Source: Rhizophagus irregularis (Eukaryota > Glomeromycota > Glomeromycetes > Glomerales > Glomeraceae). From it: a stretch of DNA of 64,000 bases. Shown here one piece after another: positions 1,106-61,228 of the stretch; position 1 is the stretch's first letter, and every line of letters starts with the position of its first letter. The stretch spans positions 2,323,001-2,387,000 of the forward strand of contig NC_089446.1 in NCBI RefSeq assembly GCF_026210795.1. Direction: 5' to 3'. The position numbers and the translations under genes are program-made. Under the pieces are notes generated by a model. That model made no database searches. It saw only the letters and a program-made list of their open reading frames with translations, and was not told the origin of the DNA.

Positions 1106-4100
1106 CTATCCAATATAATTTTCCAAAGATGAAACATCTAAATCTCTGATCAAATTCGACATCATTTCCAGGTGTTTGTCGATACGGATTTCTAATAACA
1201 CATCTGCTACAACCCATGGAAAACTCAATAGACAAGTCTTGCCTCCTCGATCAGGATGTTCTTCCTGATTATAAGTTACGTGATACCACGCGCAAGCTTT
1301 TGCTTTAGATTCATCGTTTATTGGAATCGGTATATATAAACTAAAAGGTGTGGTATCATCCGAATCATTATCATCATTGGTATCCTGAGTCAATCCAATT
1401 AAGAATCTTTTTCGATAATTATGAATGATATGCGATATTGTGCCGGCAATCGCTTCCCGTATGTCTTGCTTTTTTCTGCCATCTGTCCGTTTGTATCCCA
1501 ACAATTGTGCGGTTAAAATCTCCGCTTCCGTCTTAACTCTGTACTTTTTCATAAGATTACGAATTTCACCATTATAATTATCCCGAAAAACGATGGCCTC
1601 ATCAATATAATCTTCAAATCCATCAAACATAAAATCTTCATTTGTAGCTATGTCTTCTGCATTATATTTTAGTAAAGGGTCACTATTCGGTTTATCTATT
1701 TTGATATTGCGATATAATCGTCCAAGTATTTTTCCGGATCGATATGATTCTTTGAATTTATGCTCCATAAAATCAGGATATTTACTGATGGAGGGTAGAC
1801 TATCGTCTACTGGAACTCCCGTTTTATTAAAGTCTACTGCTTTTGAATGCTAAATAATTAAAAACATTAGTTTTTAATTAAAAGTTGCTCGAAAATATTA
1901 TTAACTACATACCAGTTCGGCTAGTTTAATACATTCTTCAGATCTAACACCGCCTATACTATGATCCGCAAAAGCTAAATGAAGATTTCCGATTTGACCA
2001 AGACGATCATTCAACATGAAATCTTTAAAAAAATCACAAACGTCGGATATTTTGACTGGTCTATCTTCTATGATTTTTCTATCCGGAGGATCGTAATTCA
2101 TTGGGTCTTCATTCGAGTTTATGCGAATTCGTTCGTCAAAACAAACAAAAAATTCGTCCCCATCTTATTTATGTAAAATAAATTAATGATTGTAATCAGG
2201 TTATGAAATAATAATAATTAATTATTACCTAAATCGCCTCCGGACTATTATGTTAAAAAATACAAAATGTATAAATTAGCTAATTTTTTTTTTTAAAAAA
2301 AAAAATTATCATTGCATACCAGAAGATTTGGCAAGGGTCTATCTCCTTTTTGACTGAATACCACGCAGTTTCTTAAATGGGATAATTCAGGGACGTCTAC
2401 TGCTTGAACTTTCCTGATATCACCAGGATGCAAACACGGGTTCCTGGTAATCACTATTAAAGAATATTGAATATTAAATAAATCAAGATGTTTTACATAT
2501 AATCTGTAATATATGAAAAACTTACTAGCTTGACCCGTCCAAACTTTGTGCTCTCTTTGAACTTTATTGTTCGCCGAATCAAATGTTTGATGTTCGGAAA
2601 CGATGGTAGAAGTTTGAATGAAAATTTCACCCTCTTCCAAAATTCCACTTTCATCAATAACACCTAGTAATAAAAATGACTTGGGCATTAAAATACGCGC
2701 TTTGTATATCTTAGAGATTTCAACGCAAAAACTCGTTTGCACTCCAAGAGTGCCTTTAGGAACGGATCAACGGTTCCTCTCATCATTCCCTAAAATTACA
2801 AATATTTTTTTTTTTTAAAAAAAAAAGATAACCTAATTGAGTCTATAGTATGATAAAATATATTCAATACGAACCGCGTCAATCATACTAAGAATTGTAC
2901 GCATAACATGGGAACACTCTCTTGTACCGATATTACGTTTTACAATTTCGCGCGCTTTTTCCTCATTAGTCATCATCGAGTCTATATCTGCACGCATTTC
3001 GTTTTGGAGAGTAATGAACACATCATCTTGTACTCCAAGCGCCGACAGTAATAATATAATCTGTCGGTTTAAATGGCCAGGCAACGGATTTTTAACCGTT
3101 TTAACAATTTCCAAAATGGAAGAAGGTGCGATAAATTTTTTTTGACTGGGGCGTATGCATAGGACGTCACCTTCAAGACTTGGATCAACTGCAACTACTC
3201 CCTAAAATAAATTTATAATAAGGTTAAATTATTTTAGGAACATAAATTGTCATTATAATCCATACCTTACATCCACCAAACCGAATTTGGAACACTGAAG
3301 GGATTTCCTTGTCTTTTGGCTTTTTTCCCCAATACCTTTTCGCTGCACGTTTGGCTAGACTCTCCGATATTTTTCCACAACCATCACTAAAAAATGATTG
3401 AAATGATTATTATTTCTTAAATTCAAAATGATGACCAAAATGGTTATCTCATACCCTCATACCTAAAGTTATAATCATTCCTTGTGATATCCGGAATAAC
3501 TACTATTTGATCTTGATTTAGAATCAACGTTCCAACAGTGCTTGTAAAACATTGGCCCATTCGAGCTGCATATAATGAAGGAGCCTGAATGCCGCTAATT
3601 AAAATAAATCACTTAAATTAATACCGTTATACGATAATTTTTATAATAAAAGATTAAAATTTATAACCTACCTGAAATCTCCCATGTTATCACGAATAAA
3701 ATTTGCGTTGAATTCTCCATCAGAAGCAACAAACCAACATGAAGCTTCTTTTAGCTGTGACGACGAAAATGCTAGAAATTCATAATGTCGTCCAGCTAAA
3801 CAAATTCCGGTATTTAGTATAGTAACTATTCTTCTTATTATATCAATACTTTCATATTTATTGACATAAAGCCTATCAAGATTCTCATCCATAAACGAAA
3901 CACGTAAGAAACGATCTATTTTATCTTCATATAAGCGTAATATTCTATTTGATGACTCATAATTAGGTCCATCGAAATACATTTTAGTTGGAGTAATGGT
4001 TGCGTGGTTTACCCATACGCAACGAGAATTATTTGCCAAAGGATCTGAAGGGCGCCAAACGTTAAATTTATCACAAAAATTTTTTAGCGCAGTTTTAAAA

Positions 4101-5233
4101 ATTGATACCGGACGTTCTTGATATCTTTTATCGAAAGGATCCCAATATTTCGTTGATATTTGATTTAGTGAATGCCACGTCATCATTTCTTGGTTTTCAT
4201 AGTAAATTAATTCAACTAATTGTTCACCCAATTCTTCTTCGATTTCATAGAATGTCAATTTTCCGTAAGACACTAAACTTTCTAATAAAAAACAAATTTT
4301 AAAAGGCAATATTTGACATATTTCATCAAAATAATGCCTTGAATAATTTAATTCAATACATTTGACCACGCATTGGGGTATAGGACGTGGAACACCTCTT
4401 ATTACAAAATTATTTAGCACATCACGCAATTGATCAAGGTTATCACTAAAGGTTAACCTATATACTAAACATCTACCTAAAATGTTAACATTTCCGGTCC
4501 AATCAAAAGTTCTGATCCAAAAATCTTGTTCTTCCTGATACCACGAAGTAATACCCATTTTTTCTGCTTTAACCAACTCGCCAGCTTTGCAATAAAGGTA
4601 CGGTGGTTGCTTTAGACTGATGTAAAGGGACATTGAACCATCTTTCTGGTTTTTTGTATCAAGAAAAATTCCACGCGAGTTTCCAGCCAAACTGCGAAAA
4701 GAAATCTTGACACGTCGTTCTTCTGAAGATTCGCCCGGTAAATTGAACCCTTCTAGTATTAAAGCTTCGTCAGCCTTTGAAAAATATATCGTAGGTGTTT
4801 CATAATAATTTGGATATATCCATTCTGTTAAGAACGTAAATTGTTCTGGAAAACCGCTATTATTTCTTCTTTCACGCATATGCGTTGTAGATAATTGCTC
4901 ACCCCAGTTTCCAATTTCAATATTTGATAAAAGAAATTTAGCTATCTCATACGCATTATTAGATTTCTCTCGTCCTTTCTTATTCTCTCTAAAGGGAAGT
5001 ATACATAAAGATGTTCCCATGCAATCCGGAGGATGAAAATCTGCAAATGAGATGCAATTTTTTGCATCATTTTCTTCCTCAAATTCTGCAAAACCAAAAA
5101 TAGAATTCTGATTTCTCATATTTTTTGGCCTTTTCAAGTCAACTTTAATAACAGGACCATATTTTGACAAAGCTTCAACTACATCTCTTGGTATAGCATC
5201 ATTTGGAATATTTTTAATAAATATTTTTGACAT
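1106..5233 (-). CDS. RNA-dependent RNA polymerase (RDR/QDE-1 type), nine exons, one apparent frameshift
   Basis: Cellular RNA-dependent RNA polymerases copy single-stranded RNA into dsRNA for silencing. My exon model from splice sites and family conservation is 3672-5233, 3463-3594, 3266-3386, 2875-3201, 2526-2789, 2453 down to about 2321, 2229-2244, 1913-2163 and 1106-1849, giving roughly 1,190 residues. Residues 1-85 form an RRM (RNP2-like IFIKNI, RNP1-like FGFAEFE). The polymerase core follows, with TPTKMYFDGP, the YAARMGQCF block, a DGCGKIS block, FGGCKGVVAVDPSL and GDVLCIRP. The catalytic SGGDLDGDEFF is rebuilt across exons 7 and 8. Donors are mostly GTATG, GTAGG or GTAAG; the exon 4 donor (GTTCG) is weak. 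In exon 5 the frame leading in (DPFLKALLECKRVFALKSL) and the frame leading out (KARILMPKSFLLLGV) differ, so a shift of one deleted or two inserted bases lies near 2700-2712. This is either an assembly error or a decaying allele; everything downstream stays open and conserved. It is divergent to the dsRNA-binding gene at 6699. Confidence 0.9.
2229..2244 (-). other. 16-nt micro-exon encoding part of the polymerase active site
   Basis: On the minus strand, TAATAG precedes and GTAATA follows the 16-nt exon TCCGGAGGCGATTTAG. Joined to the preceding exon ending in CTG and the next beginning ATGGGGACG, it yields L-SGGDL-DGDEFF, the metal-binding motif of RDR polymerases. The frame fits only if this micro-exon is included. 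Gene finders could easily miss it and so call the protein catalytically dead. Confidence 0.85.
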
Positions 5234-6698
5234 TATGTTAAAAGAATTATATCGATTATTATAATATATTGCGGTGATATTCTTTCGTTATGGGAACGCT
5301 TACTAACGTTTCTTTTCTTTTTCTTCTTTTTTCTTTTTTGTAAGGATTTCTTGATATTGATTCTTGAGACGAAAGGTAAGTTGGGAAAGTTTTTTTTTTC
5401 AATTTTTCAAATATGTTTAGGAATGAATTCTCTTTTATTACTTTGTTTATGGAGCAAAAACTCCGACTTAAAAAAAAAAGGATCTACATGAGTAAATTGA
5501 ATTAACACCGGGCATCAAAAGTAAATCATCTTTATAATGAAATATTTCCAAATATGTCTATCTACCTCACTTTGTACTACTCAGGTGACTTCACGCCTTC
5601 ACGGCTACGTTGATCTACTTTACTGATTTCTCCACTCATATGTATTACTTATCCAAACTTTTATTAACTAGACATTGAGTTCTATAATTAATAAGTATAA
5701 TTCGTGTATAAATGGCAGTGGTGGCAGTGGATAACCAATACTTTATATACCCGACGCGTGTTGCAAACATTACAATGTGGCTAATCATCAATTTTTCAGT
5801 GTGTGTAAGTAGAGTATGGATCCGTTATCCGTTTGAATAAATATTCTTTGAAAAAATTTAATTAATGGTTTAATCATAAATTTTATATATTCTCGCTATC
5901 GCTATACATAACGACCAAAACTTTGTCATCAGGTGATCATTGGCTTAGTGACTTTGTGACTATCCGCTAAACCATTTTAATCTGCAGATCTGATTTTTTA
6001 TGATCACTGATCCAAATTTATTAATATCCAGTCAATCCCAGTCAAAAGAACGGATCCAAACTCTGTGAAATTATTTATCACACATTGCTTATTTGCTTAT
6101 AATTCTGGCCAAAAAGGTCAAACCCACTCTTTTTCTTTTTACCCTTTTTACTCATTTCCCCATATTTGAGTTTAACACGTGATAATTAACCAATCAATGA
6201 TGAACATATAATGGAGTAACAAATATAATGGAGTAACGTAACCTAGTAACTATTTAGGTTTTCTCATTACCTTTAGACCTGATGATATGCATTACGATAA
6301 CGACGTACTGAACGCCTTGATTGTTCAAATAAAATCTAATCTGTACAGTAAGAATGATAGAATATTCGAATTTTAGAATATTTAAAATACATCGATTAAG
6401 CCGGAACTTGACAATTTTTTGACAAATTATGATAATAATAATAATAATAATAATAACACTGTCAGTTGTCAGTTGTCATGTTTAGTCGGCCCGGTGATCA
6501 TACCACATAAGGTTACGTAAACAAATAAGCCACAGTTTTAAGTTAAAAATAAATAGGGGAGAAATTTTTTTGTTTTTTTTTTTTTAGGGTTCTTCCTCCC
6601 TTCTTTCACTCAAAAAAAAATAATAATAATAAAATATTTTTTTGTGTTAATAGTCCTTTTTCACAACAATACTTTTGTTCTAATTATATATAATTAAA
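5234..6698. promoter_or_regulatory. Divergent intergenic region between the polymerase and dsRNA-binding genes
   Basis: This 1.46-kb gap separates two start codons pointing away from each other, so it must hold both promoters. It contains pyrimidine-rich tracts at 5310-5400 and 6560-6610, an (AAT)n microsatellite at about 6430-6456, and GGCC-repeat remnants near 6100. No coding region is apparent. Whether the two genes share control elements cannot be told from sequence alone. Confidence 0.5.
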
Positions 6699-8825
6699 AT
6701 GTATAGTTTACCACGTATTCCTCACTCCGTAAACTATATTAAAAACAACAGTTTTTCTAATTTACCAACAAAGATAAATAATGATGTTTTTAACTTTATA
6801 GATAGTAATCGTTCATCCATATTGACGAAAAACAAGGTCGCTAATATTGGTAGTAGTGGACCTTCTAATTTATCAGTAAATAATACTTTTAATACCATTA
6901 ACCGTAATAATAATGGTAATACTTCTAATTTACCGACAAAAAATAATGTTTTCCAACCAGTTAATAATAGCAACAACGGTAGTGGTGGTGGTTCCTCTAA
7001 TATGTCAGTAAATAATAACGATTATAAGCCCACTAGTCATGTTAATAGTAGTAGCTCTCCTAATATTCTTGAAGAAAAATCTTCTAATATACCAGCAACT
7101 AAAGTTCTTGAGGAAATGTATAAGACACTGGAATTGGAAATTCCTCCAGTGTTTACGTTTCGTCAGGAAGTTTTTACACAAAAATTTTTTTGCAGTGCTG
7201 GTTTTATGAATAAATGGTATGATACAAAAGAAGCATTTCCGAATCAAGAAATAGCAAGAGAAGCTGCGGCTCAAAGCCTATTGAAGATAATTATGGCTTC
7301 GAAAGAATATGAAGATTATCTTCAAGAAAAAGAAAAACAGGGTACGAACCAACAAATTAATGTTGGGAGATTATCCAAATTTTTGAAAAATTTGCATATA
7401 AGTCCCGTCACGCCTAATACGCCTAATACGCCTAATATGCCTAATACGCCTGACTCGCCTGACTCGCCTGATATTCCTGTTGCGCCCTTTACATCTGTTA
7501 TGCCTTTTACACCTGTTATGCCTGAAATAATGAAAAGAAAGAAAAAGAAAAATAAGGGTAGAAATTTTATTAATAATGGTAAATTTAGAAAAGGAAATAA
7601 GCAATCCTTTACCCCAAGGAATACGATTCAAAAATTATCCAGGAGCCAAAGGAAGAAGTTAAAGAGACAAATTAGGATGCAACAAAAAGTTATTGGAAAA
7701 CAGGATGCAGTGCAATCTATATTTTGCCCTAATCCTGTTTCCAGACAGGAAAATAAACCTAAGAAGGTGAAGTTTGATGATAAAATACTTGTTCTTGGTC
7801 AAGACTTTATACCAAAACCAAATGGTTCAAAGAGTTTAAGAGGTATAATGAGTCAAAAAAATCAAAATTCATCATACCAATATGATCAAATCTCTAATGA
7901 GCCCATAACCTACCAAATGTTGGTAAGGGAATTCTTGGAGAAGGATAAAATCTACGTTCCCCCAAGCAAGTTCTTGGATGATTTTTGCATCATCTCAAAT
8001 ATTTCGAAGCCAAATTATGATTTCTACAATGATGGTTATGGAAACTTCATTGCGGAAATTTTAGTTGGTGACGTTAAATATATAGGTGAACGAGTTTTTT
8101 GTTACGTAGAAGAAGCTCAGGAATGTGTAGCAGAGATAGCTTTTAATATATTATATAACAAAAGTGATAGGAATACAAAAACGAAATTTAAAGACAGACT
8201 TTCGTTTGCATCGCTAGATCGTTCATTGGACATGCCGGATATGCTTATGCCGGACATGCCTAGCGAAGCAGCTGCATCATTTGGTTTACTACAGCAAAGA
8301 CATGAAAGTTACATTCCAATATACCCAAACTGCAACTCCTCTTGCATACAACAATTCGGAATGCCGCCACCGCCACCTCCACCTCCACCTCCATTACCAA
8401 CAACTTATTGCAATATTCCGATGGAACCTTCTCGACCGATGTCTAATACGTCTGAAAATCCATCAACTTTTGATTCAAGTCCTTTGACGGCGCCACTTTC
8501 CGTTTCAAATCTTGGTAATGTTCAAAAAACACGTCAAGAAATTCCTACACAACAGATTCAGGTAGAACCTAAACAATCGACTACCGTACCTCGACAACAA
8601 AATGATTCAATAACACCTTACGTTTTGCACAAACTTGCTAAAGAAAGAGGGTGGGGCGTCATTGATTATCAGTACAGTAAAACCCTTAAAGGGTATAAAT
8701 GTACTTGCTATATTAGAAAATTAAAATTTACCTCAAATCCTTGTATTGACAAGGATACTGCCAAGAATCAAGCAGCTAAAATTGCCTTATTAGCATTGCC
8801 GGAATATAGCGATTGTGAAATCTAG
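6699..8825 (+). CDS. Protein with three dsRNA-binding-like domains, 708 aa
   Basis: Residues 1-130 are Asn/Ser-rich low complexity. Three regions look like dsRNA-binding domains. Residues about 135-203 have PVFTFRQEVF, FFCSAGF and a C-terminal AREAAAQSLLKII helix. Residues 402-488 have FVCY-like strands and an AQECVAEIAFNIL helix. Residues 637-704 have LHKLAKERGW, GYKCTCYIR and KNQAAKIALLAL. The helix with conserved Ala/Gln/Lys spacing is the usual hallmark, but domains 1 and 2 are degenerate. Between them lie a Thr/Ser-Pro repeat (about 237-261, from a 9-bp DNA repeat at 7408-7480), a strongly basic stretch (about 278-331) and a polyproline run (about 555-567). No catalytic domain is visible. 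Three dsRBDs without an enzyme recall TRBP/Loquacious-type Dicer partners; that role here is inference from architecture and from its position head-to-head with the polymerase. It is uninterrupted, and the start is the first ATG, in an AAAATG context. Confidence 0.75.
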   Translation: MYSLPRIPHSVNYIKNNSFSNLPTKINNDVFNFIDSNRSSILTKNKVANIGSSGPSNLSVNNTFNTINRNNNGNTSNLPTKNNVFQPVNNSNNGSGGGSSNMSVNNNDYKPTSHVNSSSSPNILEEKSSNIPATKVLEEMYKTLELEIPPVFTFRQEVFTQKFFCSAGFMNKWYDTKEAFPNQEIAREAAAQSLLKIIMASKEYEDYLQEKEKQGTNQQINVGRLSKFLKNLHISPVTPNTPNTPNMPNTPDSPDSPDIPVAPFTSVMPFTPVMPEIMKRKKKKNKGRNFINNGKFRKGNKQSFTPRNTIQKLSRSQRKKLKRQIRMQQKVIGKQDAVQSIFCPNPVSRQENKPKKVKFDDKILVLGQDFIPKPNGSKSLRGIMSQKNQNSSYQYDQISNEPITYQMLVREFLEKDKIYVPPSKFLDDFCIISNISKPNYDFYNDGYGNFIAEILVGDVKYIGERVFCYVEEAQECVAEIAFNILYNKSDRNTKTKFKDRLSFASLDRSLDMPDMLMPDMPSEAAASFGLLQQRHESYIPIYPNCNSSCIQQFGMPPPPPPPPPPLPTTYCNIPMEPSRPMSNTSENPSTFDSSPLTAPLSVSNLGNVQKTRQEIPTQQIQVEPKQSTTVPRQQNDSITPYVLHKLAKERGWGVIDYQYSKTLKGYKCTCYIRKLKFTSNPCIDKDTAKNQAAKIALLALPEYSDCEI

Positions 8826-10134: not shown

Positions 10135-11811
10135 TCAATGCAAATAGAATGAAAGATATTCAGGATCAGGGTTGTTAAAATAAACGAAAGGTTTATCAAA
10201 CATTGAATTAACATTTAGATTATAATTATAATTATATTTATTATTATCCTTTCCTATTCCTTCTTTATAACAATAATCTAAATTATTTTGAGCATCAAGA
10301 TTTCCCGCTTCAGCAGATTTTGTATACCATTCAAGTGCTTTCTTTTCATTTAATTCAATTCCTATACCATATTGATAACAAAAAGCCAAATTATTTTGAG
10401 CAAAAGAATTATTATTTTTAGCAGATAAAAAATAATATTCAACAGCTTTCTTATTATTTATTGAAGTTCCTATACCATATTGATAACAAATTCCTAAATT
10501 ATTTTGAGCTTCAAAATTTCCTGATTCCGAAGATTTTAAATACCATTCAAATGCTCTCTTTTCATCTTTTAAAGCTCCTATTCCATATTGATAACAAGAA
10601 GCCAAATTATTTTGAGCATTAGAATTACCCTCTTTTGCAGATATAATAAATAATCTGAGTGCTTTTAATACATTCATATTCGTTCCTATACCATTTTTAT
10701 AACAAAAAGCTAAATTATTTTGAGCATCAAAATTTCCAGCATCAGAAGATTTAGAATACCATTTAAATGCTTCCTTTTCATCTTTATCAATTCCTATACC
10801 ATATTGATAACAACAAGCCAAATTATTTTGAGCAATAGGATTATTTCCTTCTTTTGCAGATTTTAAATACCATTCAAACGCTTTCTTTTCATCTTTATCA
10901 ATTCCTATACCATATTGATAATAAGAAGCTAAATTATTTTGAGCAAAAGAATTTCCTTCTTCAGCCCAATTTAAAACCCATTCAAATGTTTTCATCTTTT
11001 CTTTTTTATCCATAATTATTCGTAAAGTATAAAAAATACTTAAAATTAATTTTGCTAAAATATTATTTTTTTTATTAACTAAATTCTTATAATAATCAAA
11101 AATATTTTTTTCAATTTCATCAATATTTTTTAAACCAAATTTAACACATAATAAAAAGAAATATATATTATCATAATAATTATTATTATTATTATTACCT
11201 AAAGAATTTTTTTTTCTACATTCTTCAAAATCTTTTAAATGTTGTAAAGTTAAATTATAAATTAAATCATAATTTGAATCCAATTTTTTTATTGATAATG
11301 GTTTATTAATAATAAATTCTTTATAATAAAATAATGATAATAAATATTTTCCAATAATTACATTTTTTAATTGTAAAATGTAATCCTCAAAATTATCATC
11401 ATCATTATCACCATCATCATCATCATATTCTTCTTCTTCTTCTTCTTCTTCATTTTCTTCTCTTATATTTAAATCTATCATTTTTAAAATTTCTTCATTT
11501 TTAATTGCCAATAAATATAAATTTAAACATTTATTATAATCTATATAATAATAATCCATATAACCACATTGATGAAATAATCCATTTAAACTTGAAAACC
11601 AAATATCATGATTTTTATGATTTTGTATTAATTTAACAATATCATTAATATCATTAAATCGTCTTAATTTATCATTAATTATTTTAAATGAATTAATTAA
11701 ACATTCAGCTTGATTTTCTTTAAATTCATTGGTATTATAAATTATTGTATTAAATAATTTATTCATAAATTCTTTTAAAAATATTTCATCTTTATTATCG
11801 TTTTTATTCAT
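10135..11811 (-). CDS. Sel1-like repeat protein, 558 aa
   Basis: Residues 280 to about 515 are seven tandem Sel1-like repeats of 36-37 residues, each built on AQNNLA.CYQYGIG followed by a D..KAFEWY.KSA core and a GN linker. Sel1 repeats form alpha-solenoid scaffolds for protein-protein contacts. The first 250 residues are helical and Asn/Lys/Tyr-rich, with an acidic run of Glu and Asp at about 115-143 that comes from a TTC microsatellite on the plus strand. No kinase domain is present, although many glomeromycotinan Sel1 proteins are fused to one. No signal peptide or membrane segment is seen. The start lies beside a T9A10 palindrome (11814-11832). The gene is a single exon and intact. A partner or pathway cannot be named. 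Confidence 0.88.
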   Translation of the reverse strand: MNKNDNKDEIFLKEFMNKLFNTIIYNTNEFKENQAECLINSFKIINDKLRRFNDINDIVKLIQNHKNHDIWFSSLNGLFHQCGYMDYYYIDYNKCLNLYLLAIKNEEILKMIDLNIREENEEEEEEEEYDDDDGDNDDDNFEDYILQLKNVIIGKYLLSLFYYKEFIINKPLSIKKLDSNYDLIYNLTLQHLKDFEECRKKNSLGNNNNNNYYDNIYFFLLCVKFGLKNIDEIEKNIFDYYKNLVNKKNNILAKLILSIFYTLRIIMDKKEKMKTFEWVLNWAEEGNSFAQNNLASYYQYGIGIDKDEKKAFEWYLKSAKEGNNPIAQNNLACCYQYGIGIDKDEKEAFKWYSKSSDAGNFDAQNNLAFCYKNGIGTNMNVLKALRLFIISAKEGNSNAQNNLASCYQYGIGALKDEKRAFEWYLKSSESGNFEAQNNLGICYQYGIGTSINNKKAVEYYFLSAKNNNSFAQNNLAFCYQYGIGIELNEKKALEWYTKSAEAGNLDAQNNLDYCYKEGIGKDNNKYNYNYNLNVNSMFDKPFVYFNNPDPEYLSFYLH

Positions 11812-11832
11812 TGTTTTTTTTTAAAAAAAAAA

Positions 11833-18776: not shown

Positions 18777-21173
18777 TATTTCGGCATAGCTTGAACCTAA
18801 TTCACCCATAACAACATGGATACTTGAAATTTATAAGATATTCTTCTTAATAATAAAGGTTCCAATATTCTACGCTTGAATTAAGAGAATTTGAATATCT
18901 AACAATTCTCAATGATCCATAAAAAATATACTTGAAGAAAAGTTGTAAGTTGGTATATAAATGCTTTCTTAACAAGGCATATTGTCTATTATTAAATTTG
19001 ATTATAATTTCATCTCTAGGGAACAAAGTAATAAATGGGGAAGGACGACCTCTGTGTGTCTACTTATATAGGAATACGTAGAGGATGACATGACGTTTTG
19101 GCAGAGATTCTTAGATGAGATTCCCTACCTAATTCAAGCCCCCTTTCAAGCCCTCTTGATTTAAAAGGTGAAAAACTTTTTGCAATGGCTTTTACTGTAA
19201 ATGTGTATTAACGTTAAACTGATAAAAATTCTCGGTAATAATAGAGGACCAGTAAGCTTAATAATTATTATGATTAACTACTCATAACATTCTAAGCCGT
19301 TTCTATGCTTAAACAAATAAAAACATAATGTTTTTAACTAATTCAATTGAACAATCCTTTTATTGAATCAGAGTGAGATCTTTTATGATTGCTCATCAAA
19401 TGAGTTACAGCAATGATAATGACGTGTATATCGCGTAACCTTTTACCATAAATAAAATAAGAAAACAAGTCGCCATATTTTTAGCAAATGTTAATGTGAT
19501 ATTTCTTTCTCACACTAAGACTTTCTTTTCCAAGTAATTTATAATGATACGGAATTTTCTAAAATGCTGTGAAGAGAGAAAAAGGTAAAGTGTTACAATA
19601 TTTCATTGTAATTGATTTAATTGTGACGAAAAAAAAAATTTTGACCGCATAAAAAATTTTAACAATAGGTTCAATTCCTCGATTTAAATCAAATAATATG
19701 TTTTAACATAACATTGTTCTCTTAATATATTAATATATAAGCTTGCTACGCTTTCTAGGTAAGTTTATTTACTTTATAAATGATTACTAAATCTCATGAT
19801 ATACTTCTGATATATATATTATATTTATATTATATTATAGTACTATATTTTATTTTTTTTCTCGATTTAAATCTTTGAATAAATAAAATAAATAATAACA
19901 ATAATATAAAAAAATTTTTTTTTTTTCTTCTCTTCTTGAATATGCATAATATTCGGGGTGAATTCAGGGATTTATTTAGGTAGATTATCTAAACAATTAT
20001 TTATAGTATTGATAAGAAGGATTATTTAAGATTATTTAAAATATGGGGATTCTTTTTTTTTGAAAGTTCTAACCAAAAATTGAGACATTTTGGCTTTTTT
20101 GTCACACGTTAGCCCAAATTATCTGGAAACATTTGATTACGTGCACATTGAAAAAAAAAATAATTTAACCAAATTTAAACCAAATTAAGGGATATAAAAA
20201 GTTTTTTTTTTCATGTATTATCGTCATAAGAAGTCACGAATCAGAAGGAATCGAAAGGAGATGGAAAATATTTTTGATATTTTAAATGTCACATTTTTTT
20301 TTTCTCTATCCCTGGGGTTTATAATATATTAAATATTTAATATTTATATTAACGCGTCATCACAATTTTTTTACCTTTTTCAAGAGATGATCGATTACTA
20401 ATTGAAAAAATGGCTTACCAAATAAGTCAAGTTATTTATTTATAATGGAGAATTTAATCCGAAAAGGCTTATTATTGGACAATTCACGTGGTTTTTTTCA
20501 TCAGGAATGGAACATAATTTCCATAATTAAGTCATTATAGATTTTTTATATTATAATTTCTTTTTAATACAGTAATAAAAATGACATATTATTATATCTA
20601 TTATAATTATGTATTTTTTTTTATTTTTTAAAAAAAATAAAAATATAAATATAAATACATAATTATAATTATATAAACAAAGAAATATTTTATGATATCT
20701 TACGTTCATTTCTACAATTTCTTCAATATATTTATTATAATAAAAAAAAAGTTTTTTTTTTTTTATACACGTATTTATTTTAGTAAACCAAACAAAAAGT
20801 TTTCACAAGCTGTATACAATATATTTGTGGCGTGGGCGAGAGTGAACTTGATTTAGTATAGATCGTTATGAAATAGTAAACACATTTACCGTATGAATTT
20901 TTTTTTTTATACAATTTTACAATAATTTTTTCGGCTTCGGTCTAAACAGGCTGGGATGATTTATTAATAGGATAATAATACTTTATTTTAAATTTTGCGA
21001 TATAAAAAGAGTAAAAAAAATTCCATAAAAAAAAAAATTTTTTTTTAAAAAAAATAAATAAATAAAAAAAAATAAATAACAAAAACTTTCCTCTCACTTT
21101 TATTTTTTTCTTTTTCTCAGTTTATAAAATTTTTCTTATAAAAAAATTTTTTTTTTTCGACTAATAAAAAAAA
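18777..21173. other. Gene-poor region upstream of the first MATA-HMG gene
   Basis: No gene is recognised. A slightly GC-richer stretch at 19020-19150 looks like unplaced relic sequence. The last 400 bases before the HMG start are very A+T-rich with T- and A-runs, as expected of a promoter and 5' leader in this genome. Confidence 0.4.
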
Positions 21174-21914
21174 ATGTCAACACAAAATTTTTCAATCGAA
21201 GATTTAGCAATTTCATTAATTGATAGGTTGGATAGGTGTAATATTTTTCCACCACATTTAAATAATCCAGAAAAATTGATTTCTTCATCAAATACTTTAA
21301 ACGGTTTATCAATAAAACATCCAAGAAGATCTCCAAACGCTTTTTTATTATGCAGAAAAAATGTACATCAAGAAGCAAAACGTAAAGGAACTTGCAATAT
21401 GCGCGTAATAAGTAAAGTTACAGGAATTTTATGGAGGAACGCTTCACCTGAAGAAAAGAGCGTCTATGAAAGATTGGCTGATCGAGTAAATGAACTTCAT
21501 TGTAAAAGGGCTAGTATAGTGTCTGATACTCCTCCTTTAACTAAAGTTAAAGAAACTTCTGGTTTTAGACCTTATTCTATCCCTTCACATTTAAATCCTT
21601 CTATAAATTTATTAAATTCTTCATTAACTACATCGAATCTTCCTTTACCGCTTCCAATTTCTTCTTATTCTCCTTCTTCCATTTCTCAAATTACTTTAAA
21701 TAATCCTTCTTCTGCTTTTGATCAAAAAGATGACTTTTTTTTAAATAATTTAAATAATTCCACAAATTATTTTAACCCTTCCTCATCAGATTTTAATAAT
21801 AATCAGGTTATTCTTCATAACAACAATAATGATAATCATATATTATCATATATATATAATAATTATATAGTACCTCCTCCTGTATCTTCGCATACCTTTT
21901 CTAATAATTTATGA
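21174..21914 (+). CDS. MATA-HMG box protein, 246 aa
   Basis: Residues about 48-110 form an HMG box of the fungal MATA type. It starts with RRSPNAFLLCRKNVHQEA, continues with NMRVISKVTGILWRNASP and ends with EEKSVYERLADRVNELH. Such boxes bend and bind DNA in the minor groove, and related proteins act in mating-type control; in arbuscular mycorrhizal fungi the family is expanded to many copies with unknown roles. Upstream of the box, residues 17-30 carry DRLDRCNIFPP, an NIFPP signature shared with the gene at 40627. The C-terminal half is Ser/Pro/Asn-rich and probably disordered, as in many transcription factors. It is a single exon. The start ATG follows an A-rich leader, and a T9A9 palindrome (21953-21970) lies 40 bp past the stop. 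Direct mating-type function is not shown. Confidence 0.88.
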   Translation: MSTQNFSIEDLAISLIDRLDRCNIFPPHLNNPEKLISSSNTLNGLSIKHPRRSPNAFLLCRKNVHQEAKRKGTCNMRVISKVTGILWRNASPEEKSVYERLADRVNELHCKRASIVSDTPPLTKVKETSGFRPYSIPSHLNPSINLLNSSLTTSNLPLPLPISSYSPSSISQITLNNPSSAFDQKDDFFLNNLNNSTNYFNPSSSDFNNNQVILHNNNNDNHILSYIYNNYIVPPPVSSHTFSNNL

Positions 21915-40626: not shown

Positions 40627-41724
40627 ATGGTTATGGCTCTTTTTATAAGGAATAATAATGAAGAAAAAATTGAACATGTCAAAAAAATTGACATGGTAAA
40701 TGAAGTAACCGAATTTATTAAAAAACTAGACCATTCGAACATTTTTCCACCTAAATATTCGGCGAGTGAAATAATGGTTACAGATACAGATAAAGAAGGA
40801 TTATCCAACAAAAGAACTATGACCGGTTTTTTTTGCTTTAGACATGTCGTTTACCTTGAAGTATTACAACAAGAACTTTTGGATTTTATAAAAGGCGGTA
40901 TGTTTTTCGCACAGGTCGCTAGCGTTATGTGGAATGAAGCAAGTCAAGAAGATCGTGATAAGTATAAAGAACTTTCTTTGGAATTAAAAAGGTTACAAAT
41001 TAATTGTCATAAGGATAAATCTTTTAATAATAGAAAAAAACCTTCAACTAGTCCAGTATTTAATATCAATAACATTAGCTTACAAAAAACAAAACCAAAT
41101 AATAATATTATTAAAAAGAAAAAAAAAATTATAAACAAAAAACAACTTCAATCTGAACAAACTGTTGATAAATCAATTATTGAACAAACTCCACAACAAT
41201 CAAGTACTTCTTTTCAAAGAATGTCTATAGCTTTTTTAGTGGAAAATTTATCTAATAATGAATCAAACGAAATAACTGAATTTATTAAAAAACTTGATTA
41301 TACAAATATTTTTCCACCAAAACGTTCAGCGAAAGAAATAATGGTCACAGAATTAAATAAAGAAGGTTTACCTAGAAGAGCGATGAATTGTTTTTTTTGT
41401 TTTAGACATGTCGTTTATCTTGAAATAGTACAACAAAAACTTTTAGATTTTGTAAAAGATGGAGTATTTTTTACGCAGGTCGCTAGCGAAATGTGGATTA
41501 AAGCTAGTCAAAAAGATCGTGAAAATTATAAAGAACTTGCCTCGGAATTAAAAAAACTGCAGATTAATTTTCATAAAGACAAAACTTATATTAAACACAA
41601 ACCAGCCGGCTCAGTGTTTGTTAATATGAACGACAATAATTTCCTGAGAACAAAAACAAATAATACAATTAGAAAGAGGAAAAAAAATACTAACAAGGAA
41701 CAAGTGGTTAAAATCGAGAAATAA
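40627..41724 (+). CDS. Protein with an internally duplicated MATA-HMG unit, 365 aa
   Basis: Two similar halves are joined by a basic, Asn/Gln-rich linker (about 130-210). Each has an N-terminal segment (EFIKKLDHSNIFPPKYSA and EFIKKLDYTNIFPPKRSA) followed by an HMG-like box at about 64-124 and 252-311, with FFCFRHVVYLE, FFAQVASVMWNEASQ or FFTQVASEMWIKASQ, and DRDKYKELSLELKRLQI. The halves are also alike in DNA, so a fairly recent internal tandem duplication is likely. In both boxes the usual PNAF start is replaced by TGFF or NCFF and the first helix is acidic and hydrophobic rather than basic, so DNA binding may be weak or altered. The C terminus is Lys-rich and could act in nuclear import. 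Single exon; an upstream A/T tract adjoins the start codon. Confidence 0.85.
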   Translation: MVMALFIRNNNEEKIEHVKKIDMVNEVTEFIKKLDHSNIFPPKYSASEIMVTDTDKEGLSNKRTMTGFFCFRHVVYLEVLQQELLDFIKGGMFFAQVASVMWNEASQEDRDKYKELSLELKRLQINCHKDKSFNNRKKPSTSPVFNINNISLQKTKPNNNIIKKKKKIINKKQLQSEQTVDKSIIEQTPQQSSTSFQRMSIAFLVENLSNNESNEITEFIKKLDYTNIFPPKRSAKEIMVTELNKEGLPRRAMNCFFCFRHVVYLEIVQQKLLDFVKDGVFFTQVASEMWIKASQKDRENYKELASELKKLQINFHKDKTYIKHKPAGSVFVNMNDNNFLRTKTNNTIRKRKKNTNKEQVVKIEK

Positions 41725-45537: not shown

Positions 45538-46830
45538 TCAATCACAAAACCCTTGTACCTCTATTCCCAATTTACTACCATGTCCCAAGGAAACAATAGG
45601 ATAAACTTGAGAAGGGATGTTCCATTTAGAAACTAAAGGTTTCTTATTATCATTTATAGAAAAGGCACAAGTTCTGTATTTCATATCCAGATGAACAGTA
45701 ACCTTATCCCCTTCTTTAAATTTTGCATCATACCATTTATATTTTTTTTCATGATAAACGTAACCATCGGATCCAAGAACCCATCCATGATAATCTTGAT
45801 CATTTTTATTTAAATCCACATTAATATTGCATACGCCAATATAGATTGTTTTACGCAACTTTTTAACTGAAATATTCCATTCGTAAACTCCTCTACCTTT
45901 AAAGACTAAATCTCCTAATATTGATTTAGACTGTGTATTATTGGCTTCAACGGTAAATCCATAATCAGAAACAATTAAATCTGGTTTATCATTTTTCCAT
46001 TTAAAAATAGGTACTCCTCGAATAAATCCTAATCCTTTACCCGATGATATGGAAAAATATGTATTTTTGATATCTTCATTCGAATAAATATTATATGGTT
46101 CAACATGTGTTTTAATTTCTTCTGGATCCATTCGATTTAAATTAATGTAACGAGCGAGTGGAATTAAATATTTTTGAACCTCCTGTTGACCATATGTCTT
46201 TGCTTTCGTTAAAGCATATTCCCATATTTCAATTTCTGGTGTTGCAAAAGACTCTTTAGTATCAATAGTTTTCATTAAAAGATACCTTAACCCTTCTATT
46301 GATAATGAATCAATTTCGTTTTTTTTCAATCTGTCCTTGGCTACCCAGCATACTAAATATCTAAGTACATCATCATCCATATCATCTATTGTTAAGGAGA
46401 ATTTATTTACAAGATCAGATAATAGTTTTTTACCGGTATCTTCATTTCCATCTTTCAAAAATGATAAAATTGCAATATACATTTCCGGCTGAAATGACAA
46501 TTTAAAATGAGCAGCTGCGTAATAAACTTCAATAAAATTATCAACATTTAAATTTTCTTCTCTAATTTTAGATGTATATAGATATTCTAAAACAACTTTC
46601 ATAGCATTTGAATTAACATTATTAAATGAAAGAATATTGTCTTTTGACTCGGTGAAAATAAGTTCGTTGAAAATTTTGGAACGTGTTGCTAAAATAGGTT
46701 TGTACCCAAATACGATTTTTCCATCTGAACATTTTAAAGCAATGTCATGAAATCTTTCATCGTTCATTAATCGTCTTAAATCTTTTTCTAATAATGTTTC
46801 TTTTTCTGAAGATGAGAATGTTTGACCCAT
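45538..46830 (-). CDS. BTB-BACK-SPRY protein, 430 aa
   Basis: Residues about 18-125 are a BTB/POZ domain (DERFHDIALKCSDGK, ILATRSKIFNELIF, MKVVLEYLYTSKI). Residues 130-230 are BACK-like (GKKLLSDLVNKF, IDSLSIEGLRYLL). Residues about 300-425 form a SPRY domain (GVYEWNI, IYIGVCNINVDL, YHGWVLGSDGYVY, GDKVTVHLDMKYRTCAFSI). BTB-BACK proteins commonly dimerise and bring substrates to Cullin-3, with a Kelch or SPRY domain as the recognition part; that role here is inferred from architecture. The MGQ start suggests possible N-myristoylation (MGQTFSS). Upstream of the ATG, GGGCGTTAA (46876-46884) next to a pyrimidine run is shared with neighbouring copies. Confidence 0.9.
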   Translation of the reverse strand: MGQTFSSSEKETLLEKDLRRLMNDERFHDIALKCSDGKIVFGYKPILATRSKIFNELIFTESKDNILSFNNVNSNAMKVVLEYLYTSKIREENLNVDNFIEVYYAAAHFKLSFQPEMYIAILSFLKDGNEDTGKKLLSDLVNKFSLTIDDMDDDVLRYLVCWVAKDRLKKNEIDSLSIEGLRYLLMKTIDTKESFATPEIEIWEYALTKAKTYGQQEVQKYLIPLARYINLNRMDPEEIKTHVEPYNIYSNEDIKNTYFSISSGKGLGFIRGVPIFKWKNDKPDLIVSDYGFTVEANNTQSKSILGDLVFKGRGVYEWNISVKKLRKTIYIGVCNINVDLNKNDQDYHGWVLGSDGYVYHEKKYKWYDAKFKEGDKVTVHLDMKYRTCAFSINDNKKPLVSKWNIPSQVYPIVSLGHGSKLGIEVQGFCD

Positions 46831-47354
46831 AATATTGGTATAGAACTGGAAAAAAGATATTTTTTTTTTTCTTTTGGGCGTTAATTTTTTATGGTTGTAA
46901 CACTTGTAACACTATCGTTTTGGAAAATCTTCTACACGTGATTTAAAATGCTTGTCCAAATGCTCGGAAAATGTACCGGACGTTATCTTTAATAGCTTCG
47001 TCTTTAATCTGCCGGCAGTCCGGCAGAAATCTATAACGTAAAGACAAATATTTTTTTTAACCTTCATTTGAATCATTTTCACTTTCTACTAAATTCCAAC
47101 CTAAGAAAGTAATAATAAAGAAATTAACTTTACTAATAGTTTTGAAATATAAAACAACAATGGGAAACATGAAATTCTAAAAAATAGTAGTTCATCAGAT
47201 ATATCTTATATTAAGACGGTCGTACTATTGCAAGCTAGTTAATATTATGAAAAGGATTTTCAGATATAAAATAATTAATAAATATTTATTTAATCAATTA
47301 TGATTATAAGTAATTACAATATATATTAAATTAAAGGAACGTTTATCATTAAGG
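46831..47354. other. Spacer with shared upstream and downstream flanks
   Basis: The right gene's 3' flank (about 47150-47240, with GACGGTCGTACTATTG) resembles the 3' flank at about 55940-55980 (GGACGGCGGTCGCACTATTA), so duplication included flanking DNA. The left end holds the upstream motif GGGCGTTAA of the 45538 gene. Confidence 0.5.
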
Positions 47355-48662
47355 TTAACAAAATTTAATTAATTCTTGTTTCACACGCAATTTACTACCA
47401 TGTCCTAAGGATGCAATAGGGCAAACTTGAGAAGGGATGTTTTTCCATTCAGAAACTATAAGTTTCCTAATATCATTTACAGAAAATGCGCAAGTTCTGT
47501 TTTTCATATCCAGACGAACTGTAACCTTGTCCCCTTCTTTAAATTTTGCATCATACCATTTATAATTTTTCTCATGATAAACGTAACCATCGGATCCAAG
47601 AACCCATCCATGATAATCTTGATCATTTTTTTTAAAATTCACATTAATATTATTGCATATGCCAATATAAATTGTATTACACAACTTTTCAACTAAAATA
47701 TTCCATTCATAAACTCCTCTACCTTTAAAGATTAAATCTCCTAATATTGATTTAGGTTGTATTAACTCATGGGCTTCAACAGTAAATCCACCATCAAAAA
47801 CTTTTAAACCAAATCCGCCGCTATTTTTCCACTTAAAAATAGGTACTCCACGAATAAATCCTAATCCTTTATCAACAGCCATGGAAAAATAAACTTCTTT
47901 GAGTTTTTTATCTGAATAAATATTAAAAGGTTCAATACGTTGTTTAATTTCTTCTGCATCCATTCGATTTAAGTTAATATAATCAGCTAATGGATTTAAA
48001 TATTTTTGAACCCCCTGTTGATTATACGCTCCATTTTTAGCTCTCGCTAAAATATATTCCCAAATTTCAATTTCTGGCGTTGCAAAAGGTTTTTGAGTGT
48101 CGAAAGTTTTTATTAAAAAATACTTTAGTCCTTCACATGATAATGAATCATCTACACACTTTTCCAATCTGTTCATGGCTACCCAATCGACTAAAATTCG
48201 AGACATTTCATTGTCCACTTCTTCTGGGGAGAATTTATTAACACACTCTGATAAAAGCTTTTTACCAGTATCTTCATTTTCAGACTTTAAAAACTCCATA
48301 ACTTGATTAATTATATGTGATTGAAATTCTATCAATCCAAAATGAATTGACGCATGATATACTTCAATAATATTATTAACAGTTAAATTTTCTTTTTTAA
48401 CTTCAGATACATATAAATATTCCAAAATTACTTTCATAGAATTTGAATTAATATTATTAAATGAAAGAATCTTTTTTTCTAATCCGGTAAAAATGAGTTC
48501 GTTGAAAATTTCTGAACGTGTTGCTAAAATACCTTTACATCCAAATATTCTTTCTTTATCTGAACATTCTAACGTAATATCATAAAATCTTTCATCATTA
48601 ATTAGTTGTCTTAAATCACTTTGTAATGAAGTTTCCTCTTCTGAAGAGAAAATTTGACCCAT
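47355..48662 (-). CDS. BTB-BACK-SPRY protein, 435 aa
   Basis: Closest by eye to the 45538 gene. BTB at about 18-120 (DERFYDITLECSDKER, GILATRSEIFNELIF, VILEYLYVSEV), BACK-like at 125-230 (SHIINQVMEFL, SPEEVDNEMSRILVDWVA) and SPRY at about 305-430 (FKGRGVYEWNILVEK, GWVLGSDGYVYHEK, FKEGDKVTVRLDMKNRTCA). It also starts with MGQ, so myristoylation is possible. GGGCGTCAA lies 35 bp upstream (48697-48705), next to a T-run, matching the neighbour. Single exon, no interruption. Substrate-adaptor function is inferred. Confidence 0.9.
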   Translation of the reverse strand: MGQIFSSEEETSLQSDLRQLINDERFYDITLECSDKERIFGCKGILATRSEIFNELIFTGLEKKILSFNNINSNSMKVILEYLYVSEVKKENLTVNNIIEVYHASIHFGLIEFQSHIINQVMEFLKSENEDTGKKLLSECVNKFSPEEVDNEMSRILVDWVAMNRLEKCVDDSLSCEGLKYFLIKTFDTQKPFATPEIEIWEYILARAKNGAYNQQGVQKYLNPLADYINLNRMDAEEIKQRIEPFNIYSDKKLKEVYFSMAVDKGLGFIRGVPIFKWKNSGGFGLKVFDGGFTVEAHELIQPKSILGDLIFKGRGVYEWNILVEKLCNTIYIGICNNINVNFKKNDQDYHGWVLGSDGYVYHEKNYKWYDAKFKEGDKVTVRLDMKNRTCAFSVNDIRKLIVSEWKNIPSQVCPIASLGHGSKLRVKQELIKFC

Positions 48663-50048
48663 AATTTCAGTAATTGAGTAGGTGGTTTTTTTTTTGGGGC
48701 GTCAAAATTTATTAACCTTTTTGGAAATAATTATGCAGCTGCACGTGAGGTCGTGTAAATATATGCTACGCCACAAGTATATTATCAATTTCTATTTATC
48801 GTAATACTTTATTTCGAGGAGTTTAATTTGTCGAGAAGAAACTCCACATTAGATTAAAATAGATTTCCACACGATCTTTTCAGCAAAACCATTGCTCTTT
48901 TTGTCTTCACTATCAAGAGAAAAAGAGATTGATCTTGTTAAGTGAAATATGGTTATACGTTTAGAAATTCATAAATACTACGTGAATTATTTTTTATTAC
49001 TCTGCGATGAAGGAAAATTCGACAGCATGCGAAAGTTGCATAAAAATAATTGCTTGAATAAATAGTCCTGGTTAATTTAAAGAATAGTTAAGTGAAAGAT
49101 AGTTAAACGACCGAATATTCAAAAAAAAAGAAAAAAAGAAAATGATGAATAACATTTACTTGGCACAGAAAATGGTGATTATCAAGGAAGAACTACTAAT
49201 TAAGAAAGCATTAAATAAAGCCAAATGATGTTTATAAAGAGCGAGTTGCCAATAAACCTAAATAAAGAAAGATCTCTAAGAGTGAACCCTAAGTCCTAAG
49301 ACTTAAATAACATGACAGTGTTTACACTGAGATAGAGAAATTACCTCTGATTTACTAAATGATTACGCGGCTTTTTACCTCGGGTACAGGACAAAATCTA
49401 AAGTAAATCAGCCAAGCAGGTCTGGAGAATTGGATAATTTATAATACAGCGAATGATTAGTGCGAATGCAAAGAAATTTTGTAATACTGCCTTTGGTTTA
49501 GATGGTATAACCTCCATAACTTAATTGACAAAACTGAACAAATCGTGTCATTTTCGTCTTTATCATCACCTATCTTCTATCTCTAATCTCTATTACATAT
49601 GAAATATATTCCTTCATATATTAGTTTAGAAAATAATTTACCTGTAAAATTTTGAGTCCTCCGAAATTTTTTGCGATATCATGGTATGTACGCACAACTT
49701 AGCTATGGAATCTAAAGAAAGTGCAAAAGAAAAAAACACAATTTTCTTTGTGATCATGATTTCACGGGATAACGTTAGCTTTGTTGGAAATTTTCTTGCA
49801 TTCTTGTAACAAGAATTATTTTATTAGGACACCGGAAATTCATAGATTTCTACATTATTAACGGGATCACGAATACAAACAATGCTTTCTTTAACTAGTA
49901 AAAAATCTCTAATTATTATTTCAAAAAAAAAAGTCCATTTCAATTTCATTGCTACAAGTTGTAACATGTTAAAGAAGTAATAATTAATACAAAATTTCAT
50001 AAATCAGAAAATGATGTAAAAAAGAAAATAATAGACTCACCAAATCAA
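48663..50048. other. Gene-poor spacer
   Basis: No gene or clear repeat is recognised. The right part borders the F-box gene's stop codon. Confidence 0.4.
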
Positions 50049-51722
50049 TTATTCCCATCTAACAAGAATTTTTTTATCAGAAGGAATGGAAAATATATCC
50101 AATTTTTTTATTTTCTTTTTTCTTTCTTCCGACCATCTTTTCACACATTCTCCAAATTCATTAATATCATTATTAGTTGAAACAACAACGTATAAAAATT
50201 TTAAATCCACCATACAATTTTCTAAAAACTTTCTAAATTCATCAAGATTATTAACTATGTGTACAAGTCGTATGTAATCTGTTTTCTTGGGAAAAGCCTT
50301 CACTAAATCAATAATAAATCCAGTACTAAGATTCATTGGATATCCTGGATTTAATAATTGAAACTCTTTAATATTTGGATTATTTCCAAGAATATTAAAT
50401 AAATATTTTATATCATCATCTGCTGTTAATTGTGTTGTGAAATTAATCAAATTTCTACAATTTTCACTAATTGATTTTAATAAGTTGTGATTTTTAATGT
50501 AAGTATTTAGGAGATGAAGACTTTTTAAATTTAGCGATATACTCTTGTTTTGTAAAATCATTTGAATTGGATTAAATTGACTGACATATTCCTTGTTGCT
50601 CCAATTATAAACTAATTCCAAAGAGCGTAATTTTGAGAATTCCGCTAAAGCAATCCATTCAAAATTCTTAATTGAAACATATGAATCTTCTAATTTTAAA
50701 ACTTCTAGATTTTTACAATTACCAATAAATTTAAATGTCTCATCATTCATCATTTTTATTCCACATATTTCAATTCTCTTGAGTGAATGAGCAGCGGTAT
50801 TTAATGATGAAATTATTTCAAATATAGCATCATGATAATCAGCCATATACGCATTATGAACTCCATAAATGATTATATTTTCCAAATTATTCTGATTTTT
50901 GATTAAAGATACCAACGGCCTTAAAATCAATTGAAAAAAAGGATGTTCAATTTCAACTGTTTTTAAATTCTTACACATCGAAAATGCTTCCAAAATTGCA
51001 ACCTTGAAACTTGAACGATCAAGTTCCAAATATTCTAAATTTTCAAAAAAATTTTTTGATTCATTAAAATCATCCAAGTTTAAAAAGGTTGTGATGATAT
51101 TTTCAATCTTATTAACTATATTATATCTCATTTCAACATTTGATCCAACTATTCTCTCATCATCCACGTAAAAATATTCCACATCATCATTTTCTTTTCC
51201 ATTGTTACTGAGAAATCCTTTAATGTCGTTATATCTTATATCAAATTTAAACCATTGAATGTTTGCTCTTCTCCTTGCCATATTCACTAAAATTAATAAA
51301 ATAATAACCCAAATTTGTCCGAATCCTGGCCACTTATCATATTCTAATTTAGAAAATATTGAAGGTAATGTATCATCTTGTTCCATTAAACCCATAAAGT
51401 ATTCAACTTCATTTTCATTATTATCGTAAAACTTCGAAGTGATCCTGAAAAGATTATCAAAATCTAAATGAGTAATAAAACTAGGATAATCAAAGAAAGT
51501 ATTTTTATCCTTTTTTAAGAACGAAAGTAAAACGGGAATGATTTTTGTATGATTATAATCAATTTCTTTACGAAACGGATTTTTCCATAAAAAGATAATA
51601 GCATTTTCACACCATGTATGATTTACTTGAATAATGGAGAATAGCGTTTTAGTATCTTGTACATTACTAAAAATTTGTTGGTAACATTCGTTTGGTAGTC
51701 TTGAACTCATTCTTTGATACAA
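50049..51722 (-). CDS. F-box and leucine-rich-repeat protein, 557 aa
   Basis: Residues about 7-52 fit an F-box (RLPNECYQQIFSNV, DTKTLFSIIQVNHTWCEN, LWKNPFR). F-boxes bind Skp1 and recruit substrates to SCF ubiquitin ligases. The remainder, from about 190, contains irregular leucine-rich repeats such as FFENLEYLELDRSSF, CKNLKTVEIEHPFF, CKNLEVLKLEDSYV, FSKLRSLELVYNW and SLNLKSLHLLNTYI. These are typical of the large glomeromycotinan F-box family. No transmembrane segment. Two Met codons lie close together at the N terminus (MYQRMSSRLPNE); the second fits the F-box boundary equally well. Single exon. Its place inside a BTB array is noteworthy because both families feed cullin-RING ligases. Confidence 0.85.
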   Translation of the reverse strand: MYQRMSSRLPNECYQQIFSNVQDTKTLFSIIQVNHTWCENAIIFLWKNPFRKEIDYNHTKIIPVLLSFLKKDKNTFFDYPSFITHLDFDNLFRITSKFYDNNENEVEYFMGLMEQDDTLPSIFSKLEYDKWPGFGQIWVIILLILVNMARRRANIQWFKFDIRYNDIKGFLSNNGKENDDVEYFYVDDERIVGSNVEMRYNIVNKIENIITTFLNLDDFNESKNFFENLEYLELDRSSFKVAILEAFSMCKNLKTVEIEHPFFQLILRPLVSLIKNQNNLENIIIYGVHNAYMADYHDAIFEIISSLNTAAHSLKRIEICGIKMMNDETFKFIGNCKNLEVLKLEDSYVSIKNFEWIALAEFSKLRSLELVYNWSNKEYVSQFNPIQMILQNKSISLNLKSLHLLNTYIKNHNLLKSISENCRNLINFTTQLTADDDIKYLFNILGNNPNIKEFQLLNPGYPMNLSTGFIIDLVKAFPKKTDYIRLVHIVNNLDEFRKFLENCMVDLKFLYVVVSTNNDINEFGECVKRWSEERKKKIKKLDIFSIPSDKKILVRWE

Positions 51723-52795: not shown

Positions 52796-52994
52796 CAGTG
52801 ATGTGCATAATGAATTTTTATTGGAATTGGAAGGCTTGGAATTGGAAGAATTGGAAGATTCCAAGATTCCAATAATTTTCAATACATTAGTTTTTATATA
52901 TACGAATATATATTTCTATGTGCATTGGAAGCTTCCAAAAAATTTATTGGCATTGGAAGGCTTGGAGCTTCCAATCTTCCAATGCACATCACTG
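52796..52994. mobile_element. hAT-like MITE, 199 bp
   Basis: The ends are CAGTGATGTGCATAATG and, complemented, CAGTGATGTGCATTGG, the CAGTG(A/G)TG type seen in hAT elements. The interior is built of GGAATTGGAAG/CTTCCAATTCC repeats that give it hairpin-forming ability. No convincing 8-bp target duplication is seen, so the superfamily call rests on the ends only. Confidence 0.7.
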
Positions 52995-53107
52995 GCTTAA
53001 CATATCAAAATATAAATATTCTTTAACAAGTTCGAAAATTATTATTTATTTTTTTATGTATTAAAAATTAAATTCCATTTTCCTTTATTACAATTACTAC
53101 CCTTATA

Positions 53108-53689: not shown

Positions 53690-53799
53690 TAATTAACAGT
53701 ACTATTTATCTCCTTTGGATTAATTAAATTAATTGGATCGACACTCTCTCTTAGCATTAGTTTAATATTTATATTTGTTTTTATGGAGTAATAGGAAGT

Positions 53800-54055: not shown

Positions 54056-54216
54056 TCAATATCTGCACCTCTAAACCAATTATAAATTTTAACGCTTTCA
54101 ATTACAGATTCGCAATAACAGACTTGCAGCAGAAAAAGATATTATTTTTATTGTTTGTTTTCTTTCTTTAAAAAAAAAAATACTTTAAAATAAACAAGAA
54201 AAAAATATACTCCATA

Positions 54217-61197: not shown

Positions 61198-61228
61198 ATA
61201 CATTTTTTCAATAATAATATATATAATA

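Follow-up and report, generated by a model that had tools for sequence, protein, structure and literature searches.

Two genes stand head to head near the beginning of this stretch of the Rhizophagus irregularis genome: do they work together in RNA silencing, or are they neighbors with histories of their own? One is an RNA-dependent RNA polymerase (RDR) gene and the other encodes a protein with three domains of the kind that binds double-stranded RNA (dsRNA), hereafter dsRBDs. The window is the whole stretch of 64,000 nucleotides analyzed (NC_089446.1, positions 2323001–2387000; contig C18 in our numbering). A preceding sequence-only reading had described an RDR with an N-terminal RRM, standing divergently 1.46 kb from a gene for a protein with three dsRBD-like regions and no catalytic domain, and had taken the two for a silencing gene pair in which one makes dsRNA and the other binds it. 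Its anatomy was correct in each of these points, but it overlooked a frame break in the RDR. We consider it probable that the locus holds two neighboring genes with separate histories, a frame-broken RDR2-like gene and a gene for a multi-dsRBD protein of the dsRNA-binding-cofactor type, and the adjacency of the two is most likely incidental.

The polymerase gene was read as nine exons (Table 1). Exon 1 alone matches RRM_1 at residues 4–62 (37.3 bits, E = 2.5e-9) and the RdRP domain PF05183 (99.9 bits against a cut-off of 23.8, E = 1.9e-28), and its middle region gives subthreshold matches to PH_fung_RdRP and RDR6_2nd; several exons match RdRP above the curated cut-off in the own-genome PF05183 search. 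The catalytic DxDGD motif is present as SGGDLDGDEFF, split over exons 7 and 8. Among solved structures the best matches of exon 1 (E about 5e-17) are two RNA-dependent RNA polymerase structures, 7w82 and 7w84, the latter taken to be a plant RDR2; the RDR2 structures 7eu0 and 7roz follow (E about 4e-15), and after them RRM proteins. Judged by these matches, exon 1 is nearest to RDR2-type enzymes among solved structures.

Own-genome searches covered 146.7 Mb in 32 contigs. The profile search returned at least 62 RdRP-domain matches, which we grouped by hand into 23 RDR loci (a lower bound), 14 of them substantial and nine fragmentary. The RdRp expansion of the species was described by Silvestri et al. 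(2019, PMC6399891), who counted 17 RdRp proteins in R. clarus and 21 in R. irregularis, whereas proteomics of R. irregularis spores detected no RdRp (PMC8647823). The window gene is one of about two dozen loci. Its two closest relatives among those compared, L016 (C18, 2.72 Mb; C18:2717001-2727000) and L017 (C16, 1.615 Mb), share its exon order, and their exon 1 has 53.7% and 48.1% identity to that of the window gene; eight other loci are 28–46% identical over shorter stretches, the comparison having taken in 10 of the 23 loci, none of them a fragment. L017 is open through all nine exons (1,136 amino acids, one terminal stop). L016 has an in-frame stop within exon 1 which, with the frame break of the window gene, leaves two of the three RDR2-like genes broken in this assembly. 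The window RDR and its two sisters form a trio of RDR2-like genes that falls within the RdRp expansion already known from the species.

Aligned with both sister genes, exon 5 of the window gene shows a surplus of two bases (net) at about 2.70 kb in the window. Read straight through, the gene ends at codon 748 of 1,183, after 747 amino acids, and as assembled no single open frame spans the catalytic motif. Because the frameshift precedes that motif, the gene as sequenced gives no full-length enzyme by straight splicing. The break may be a real lesion or an assembly error. In favor of a real lesion, stop-free matches inside open frames of 743 to 1,264 codons occur at six other RDR loci (L003–L008), though three long RdRP matches (L001, L002, and one on C12) contain stops that may represent introns. 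The long stop-free frames of L003–L008 also differ from the window gene in structure, the latter having nine exons that include a 16-nt micro-exon. The ratio of nonsynonymous to synonymous substitution (dN/dS) between the window copy and its sisters is 0.18 and 0.27 before the break and 0.12 and 0.22 after it (simple Nei-Gojobori estimates, rough since dS is above 1), so any loss of the RDR would be recent. The break is relevant to any count of working RdRp genes.

The dsRBD gene is a single stop-free frame of 713 codons (chance about 3e-24 given the base composition). We built profiles from the domains of its own-genome paralogues, excluding the window protein itself, and these profiles recovered residues 136–193 (30.8 bits), 423–487 (41.4 bits), and 642–696 (23.5 bits), with top scores among 2000 shuffles of 7.6, 5.9, and 4.3 bits, respectively. 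Each profile peaks at its corresponding position, with domain order preserved; the domain-3 profile additionally matches domain 2 (18.2 bits). Pfam dsrm (PF00035) matches only domain 3, with a score short of the cut-off (18.9 against 23 bits, E = 0.0023), and at E up to 1 Pfam adds no further domain to the 708-residue protein. Homology to the paralogues confirms all three dsRBD-like regions. Searches of solved structures used profiles that include the window domains. The top solved match of the domain 1 profile was double-stranded RNA-binding protein 4 (DRB4), presumably the Arabidopsis protein, at E = 1.4e-10, a value that sums two stretches (26.7 bits, E = 4.2e-5; 16.1 bits, E = 0.085), and the profile also weakly matched Staufen dsRBDs (E about 0.5). 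The domain 3 profile matched PKR (E = 3.7e-5, top) and HYL1-type chains (E = 4e-4).

The paralogues lie at three further loci, L010 on C11, L011 on C28, and L012 on C17, with open reading frames (ORFs) of 754, 542, and 379 amino acids. Their whole-protein matches to the window protein are weak (best E = 2e-4, 4e-4, and 0.0016, respectively); their dsrm scores (58.4, 46.9, and 40.3 bits) all exceed the cut-off of 23. L010 and L011 have all three domains and L012 the first two, a third having been searched for there and not found. The domains stand in the same order as in the window protein and are 25–26%, 26–35%, and 21–25% identical to its domains 1, 2, and 3. Neither the window gene nor the C28 paralogue was among the seven matches of the own-genome PF00035 search, and further dsRBD relatives may therefore exist. 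The dsrm matches on C9 were rejected as family members, as they belong to a DEAD/DEAH-type helicase (L035, C9:2374001-2384000; 2550–7199, minus strand; 1549 amino acids with DEAD, HA2, and OB-fold) that carries its dsRBDs in front. The strongest of the seven matches are two open frames of about 300 amino acids at C19:954970 and C19:1080915 (L019 and L020), which may correspond to the RNase III genes of bacterial type mentioned for the species in PMC6399891. By sequence, the window protein belongs to a small family of stand-alone proteins with several dsRBDs each, within which it is divergent. No description of such a family was found in the Rhizophagus, Glomeromycotina, or arbuscular mycorrhizal literature as covered by titles and the starts of abstracts, with subscription literature mostly outside that scope.

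In dsRBDs, KKxAK at the start of helix 2 is the basic dsRNA-contact motif. All eight aligned paralogue domains retain AK preceded by a basic residue. In the window protein the motif is lost in two of three domains: domain 1 has AR without preceding lysines, domain 2 has AQ preceded by acidic residues, and domain 3 keeps the motif in part, as K..AK. Net charges follow the same order (−1, −6, and +7 for domains 1, 2, and 3), the −6 of domain 2 comparing with −1 to 0 in the three paralogues, and the linker at residues 206–400, computed for the window protein only, is strongly basic (net +25). From this pattern of motif and charge the window protein would resemble one good dsRNA-binding domain plus two domains free for other contacts. 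In Dicer partners of the TRBP, Loquacious, and HYL1 types, non-binding dsRBDs make protein contacts. The most likely action of the window protein is that of a dsRNA-binding cofactor, in which domain 3 and the basic linker would grip dsRNA and domains 1 and 2, their RNA-contact lysines lost, would serve protein contacts. RNA binding, protein contacts, and any link to silencing are what we infer for this protein.

The arrangement of the two genes does not recur at the sister RDRs or at the dsRBD paralogues. No gene of the dsRBD family was found upstream of either sister RDR (0/2, within about 13.6 and 13.8 kb), where two very short matches, of 15 and 18 residues (E = 0.016 and 0.2), were put down to chance, and no RDR adjoins any of the dsRBD paralogues (0/3, checked against the RdRP matches); among those matches, C17 is the only paralogue contig with any, 3.8 Mb away. 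Relatives of both proteins were also sought in viral contigs, where 0/47 and 0/3 pattern matches encoded a relative, a result uninformative on fungal synteny. The proposal of a silencing gene pair is therefore not supported, and the reading of one gene as maker and the other as binder of dsRNA is weakened on both sides, since the RDR frame is broken and the basic motif is lost in two of three dsRBDs. Within the intergenic region, stretches at about 5805–5838, 5918–6064, and 6596–6720 resemble other places in the genome. The last of these is the dsRBD gene's leader, of which one copy lies on C16 (86% identical, leader only) and another on C1 (83%, leader plus start-codon region); no dsRBD-like ORF was seen beside either (L027 and L028; best protein match E = 0.05). 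The idea that the whole pair stems from a mobile element was set aside, as copies elsewhere cover short intergenic stretches only.

A working pair would require that the RDR be intact in life, the frameshift being an assembly error, that a single bidirectional promoter drive both genes, and that the dsRBD protein channel the polymerase product to Dicer. The head-to-head order, with 1,465 bp from ATG to ATG, agrees with this, as does the low dN/dS before and after the break, and the a priori chance of at least one adjacency between an RDR and a dsRBD gene is about 0.6% (four dsRBD-family genes with two neighbors each, at least 23 RDR loci, and 30,209 genes; gene number from PMC10234402). That figure was, however, computed after the pair had been seen, and many other gene pairs could have drawn remark; moreover, the spacing is ordinary locally, the Sel1 gene ending 1.3 kb past the dsRBD gene. 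Together with the missing pairs among sisters and paralogues, the frame break, and the loss of the basic motif, this makes a working pair improbable in our judgment, and functional pairing of the two genes unsupported. The RDR locus might instead yield a truncated, noncatalytic protein with a regulatory role, composed of the RRM and the front of the RdRP domain. Straight reading does give such a product of 747 amino acids, and expressed short RdRp-domain proteins, reportedly with the conserved RdRp domain only, make up six of the 21 in the species (PMC6399891), but the low dN/dS after the break in the window pairs indicates that the rear part was constrained as well, and we regard this outcome as decidedly improbable. 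For the dsRBD protein, a role outside silencing is possible, if rather unlikely: it might control mRNA localization or translation as Staufen does, or act as a sensor or buffer of dsRNA. Stand-alone dsRBDs joined by long low-complexity linkers suit Staufen as well as they suit DRB proteins, Staufen is among the weak matches of domain 1, and PKR heads the list for domain 3, whereas the top solved match of domain 1, DRB4, is of the Dicer-partner type; a domain match of this kind is not decisive for function.

Several observations weigh against our account of a broken RDR beside a cofactor-type dsRBD protein. The published nanopore assembly of R. irregularis DAOM197198 (146,773,001 bp in 32 scaffolds) has a quality value of 36.27, or about one error per 4 kb (PMC10234402), and if it is the one used here the break may have arisen in assembly. 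The low dN/dS before as well as after that point implies that the RDR was constrained until recently at least, and its remaining splice sites look intact. On paper, splicing could restore the frame through four in-frame open acceptors or seven introns, found among other intron 4 acceptors used with the present donor and among GT-AG introns of 40–140 nt within exon 5; every such form loses residues shared by the sisters, at least 17 (intron 2732–2680) or about 27 (acceptor 2709). By RNA-seq, 19 of the species' 21 RdRp genes are expressed (PMC6399891), and the window gene may be among them. For the dsRBD protein, the domain 2 profile reaches dihydrouridine-synthase-like and HYL1-type chains only weakly (best E = 0.0076), the domain 3 list holds one unrelated chain (EIF1, E = 0.018), and single-sequence structure models of domains 1 and 2 are of low confidence (mean pLDDT 53.5 and 42.6) and do not confirm the alpha-beta-beta-beta-alpha dsRBD fold. 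Two neighboring genes with separate histories nevertheless remain the reading we prefer.

Of the whole locus, the small stand-alone multi-dsRBD family is the part worth keeping, as a candidate layer of Dicer partners in a fungus with 40 Argonaute-like proteins and a single Dicer besides its RdRp set (PMC6399891), and one reported to deliver small RNAs into its host (PMC13106029). A bolder proposal, which we hold to be highly improbable, is that arbuscular mycorrhizal fungi own a family of stand-alone triple-dsRBD Dicer partners, one member of which, in the window, is tied through a common promoter to an RDR with a frame intact in life, forming a module that passes new dsRNA to Dicer. If so, triple-dsRBD Dicer partners would have arisen alongside the expanded RdRp and Argonaute sets.

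Table 1 Features of the RDR and dsRBD genes and their convergent neighbor (window coordinates)
Feature	Position	Strand	Basis
RDR2-like gene with RRM and RdRP domains; nine exons, frame break within exon 5	1106..5233	-	Exon reading, Pfam, alignment with two sister genes
RDR exon 1: RRM, aa 4-62; start of RdRP domain, aa 413-520	5233-3672	-	Pfam
RDR exon 2	3594-3463	-	
RDR exon 3	3386-3266	-	
RDR exon 4	3201-2875	-	
RDR exon 5, net two-base excess near 2.70 kb, stop at codon 748	2789-2526	-	Sister alignment
RDR exon 6	2453-2320	-	
RDR exon 7, 16-nt micro-exon, encodes SGGDL	2244-2229	-	Sequence read directly
RDR exon 8, opens with remainder of catalytic motif (DGD)	2163-1913	-	Exon reading
RDR exon 9	1849-1106	-	
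Region separating both start codons, 1,465 bp	5234..6698	.	Short stretches similar to other genome places
dsRBD gene, single exon, 708 aa, three dsRBD-like domains	6699..8825	+	ORF, Pfam, paralogue profiles
dsRBD 1, aa ~131-200, basic helix-2 motif lost	7089..7298	+	Paralogue profiles, alignment
dsRBD 2, aa ~420-489, basic helix-2 motif lost, net charge -6	7956..8165	+	Paralogue profiles, alignment
dsRBD 3, aa ~637-704, K..AK kept, net charge +7	8607..8810	+	Pfam, paralogue profiles, alignment
Sel1-repeat protein, convergent neighbor of dsRBD gene	10135-11820	-	Domain match

Elsewhere in the window, a row of similar ORFs on the minus strand (45538–62587) looks like a local tandem array. The two ORFs of the row that were scanned (45541–46911 and 54220–55656) gave BTB and SPRY matches, the second SPRY falling just below the cut-off, and the others are alike by eye; an F-box-like protein (50049–51773, minus strand) lies inside the row. 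Two plus-strand ORFs (21168–21914 and 40627–41724) narrowly pass the Pfam cut-off for an HMG box, and in the latter the HMG-box region is seemingly present twice.

Compared with RDR2-type polymerases (7w84, 7eu0), the window gene is alike in its RRM front, its PF05183 domain, and its SGGDLDGD motif, and differs in that its frame, in this assembly, is broken ahead of the catalytic motif. The paralogues of the dsRBD protein in the same genome keep the basic motif in their domains, and no RDR match adjoins any of them. DRB4/HYL1, TRBP, Loquacious, RDE-4, and R2D2 are Dicer partners, as PMC12663654 states for DRB4 and HYL1. The window protein differs from this group in its long low-complexity and basic linkers and in that its domains 1 and 2 lack the basic motif; the likeness between them, one of domain architecture and sequence, may or may not reflect common descent. 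Members of the group are among the matches of the window domain profiles and, like them, the window protein combines at least two stand-alone dsRBDs with the absence of any Pfam catalytic domain.

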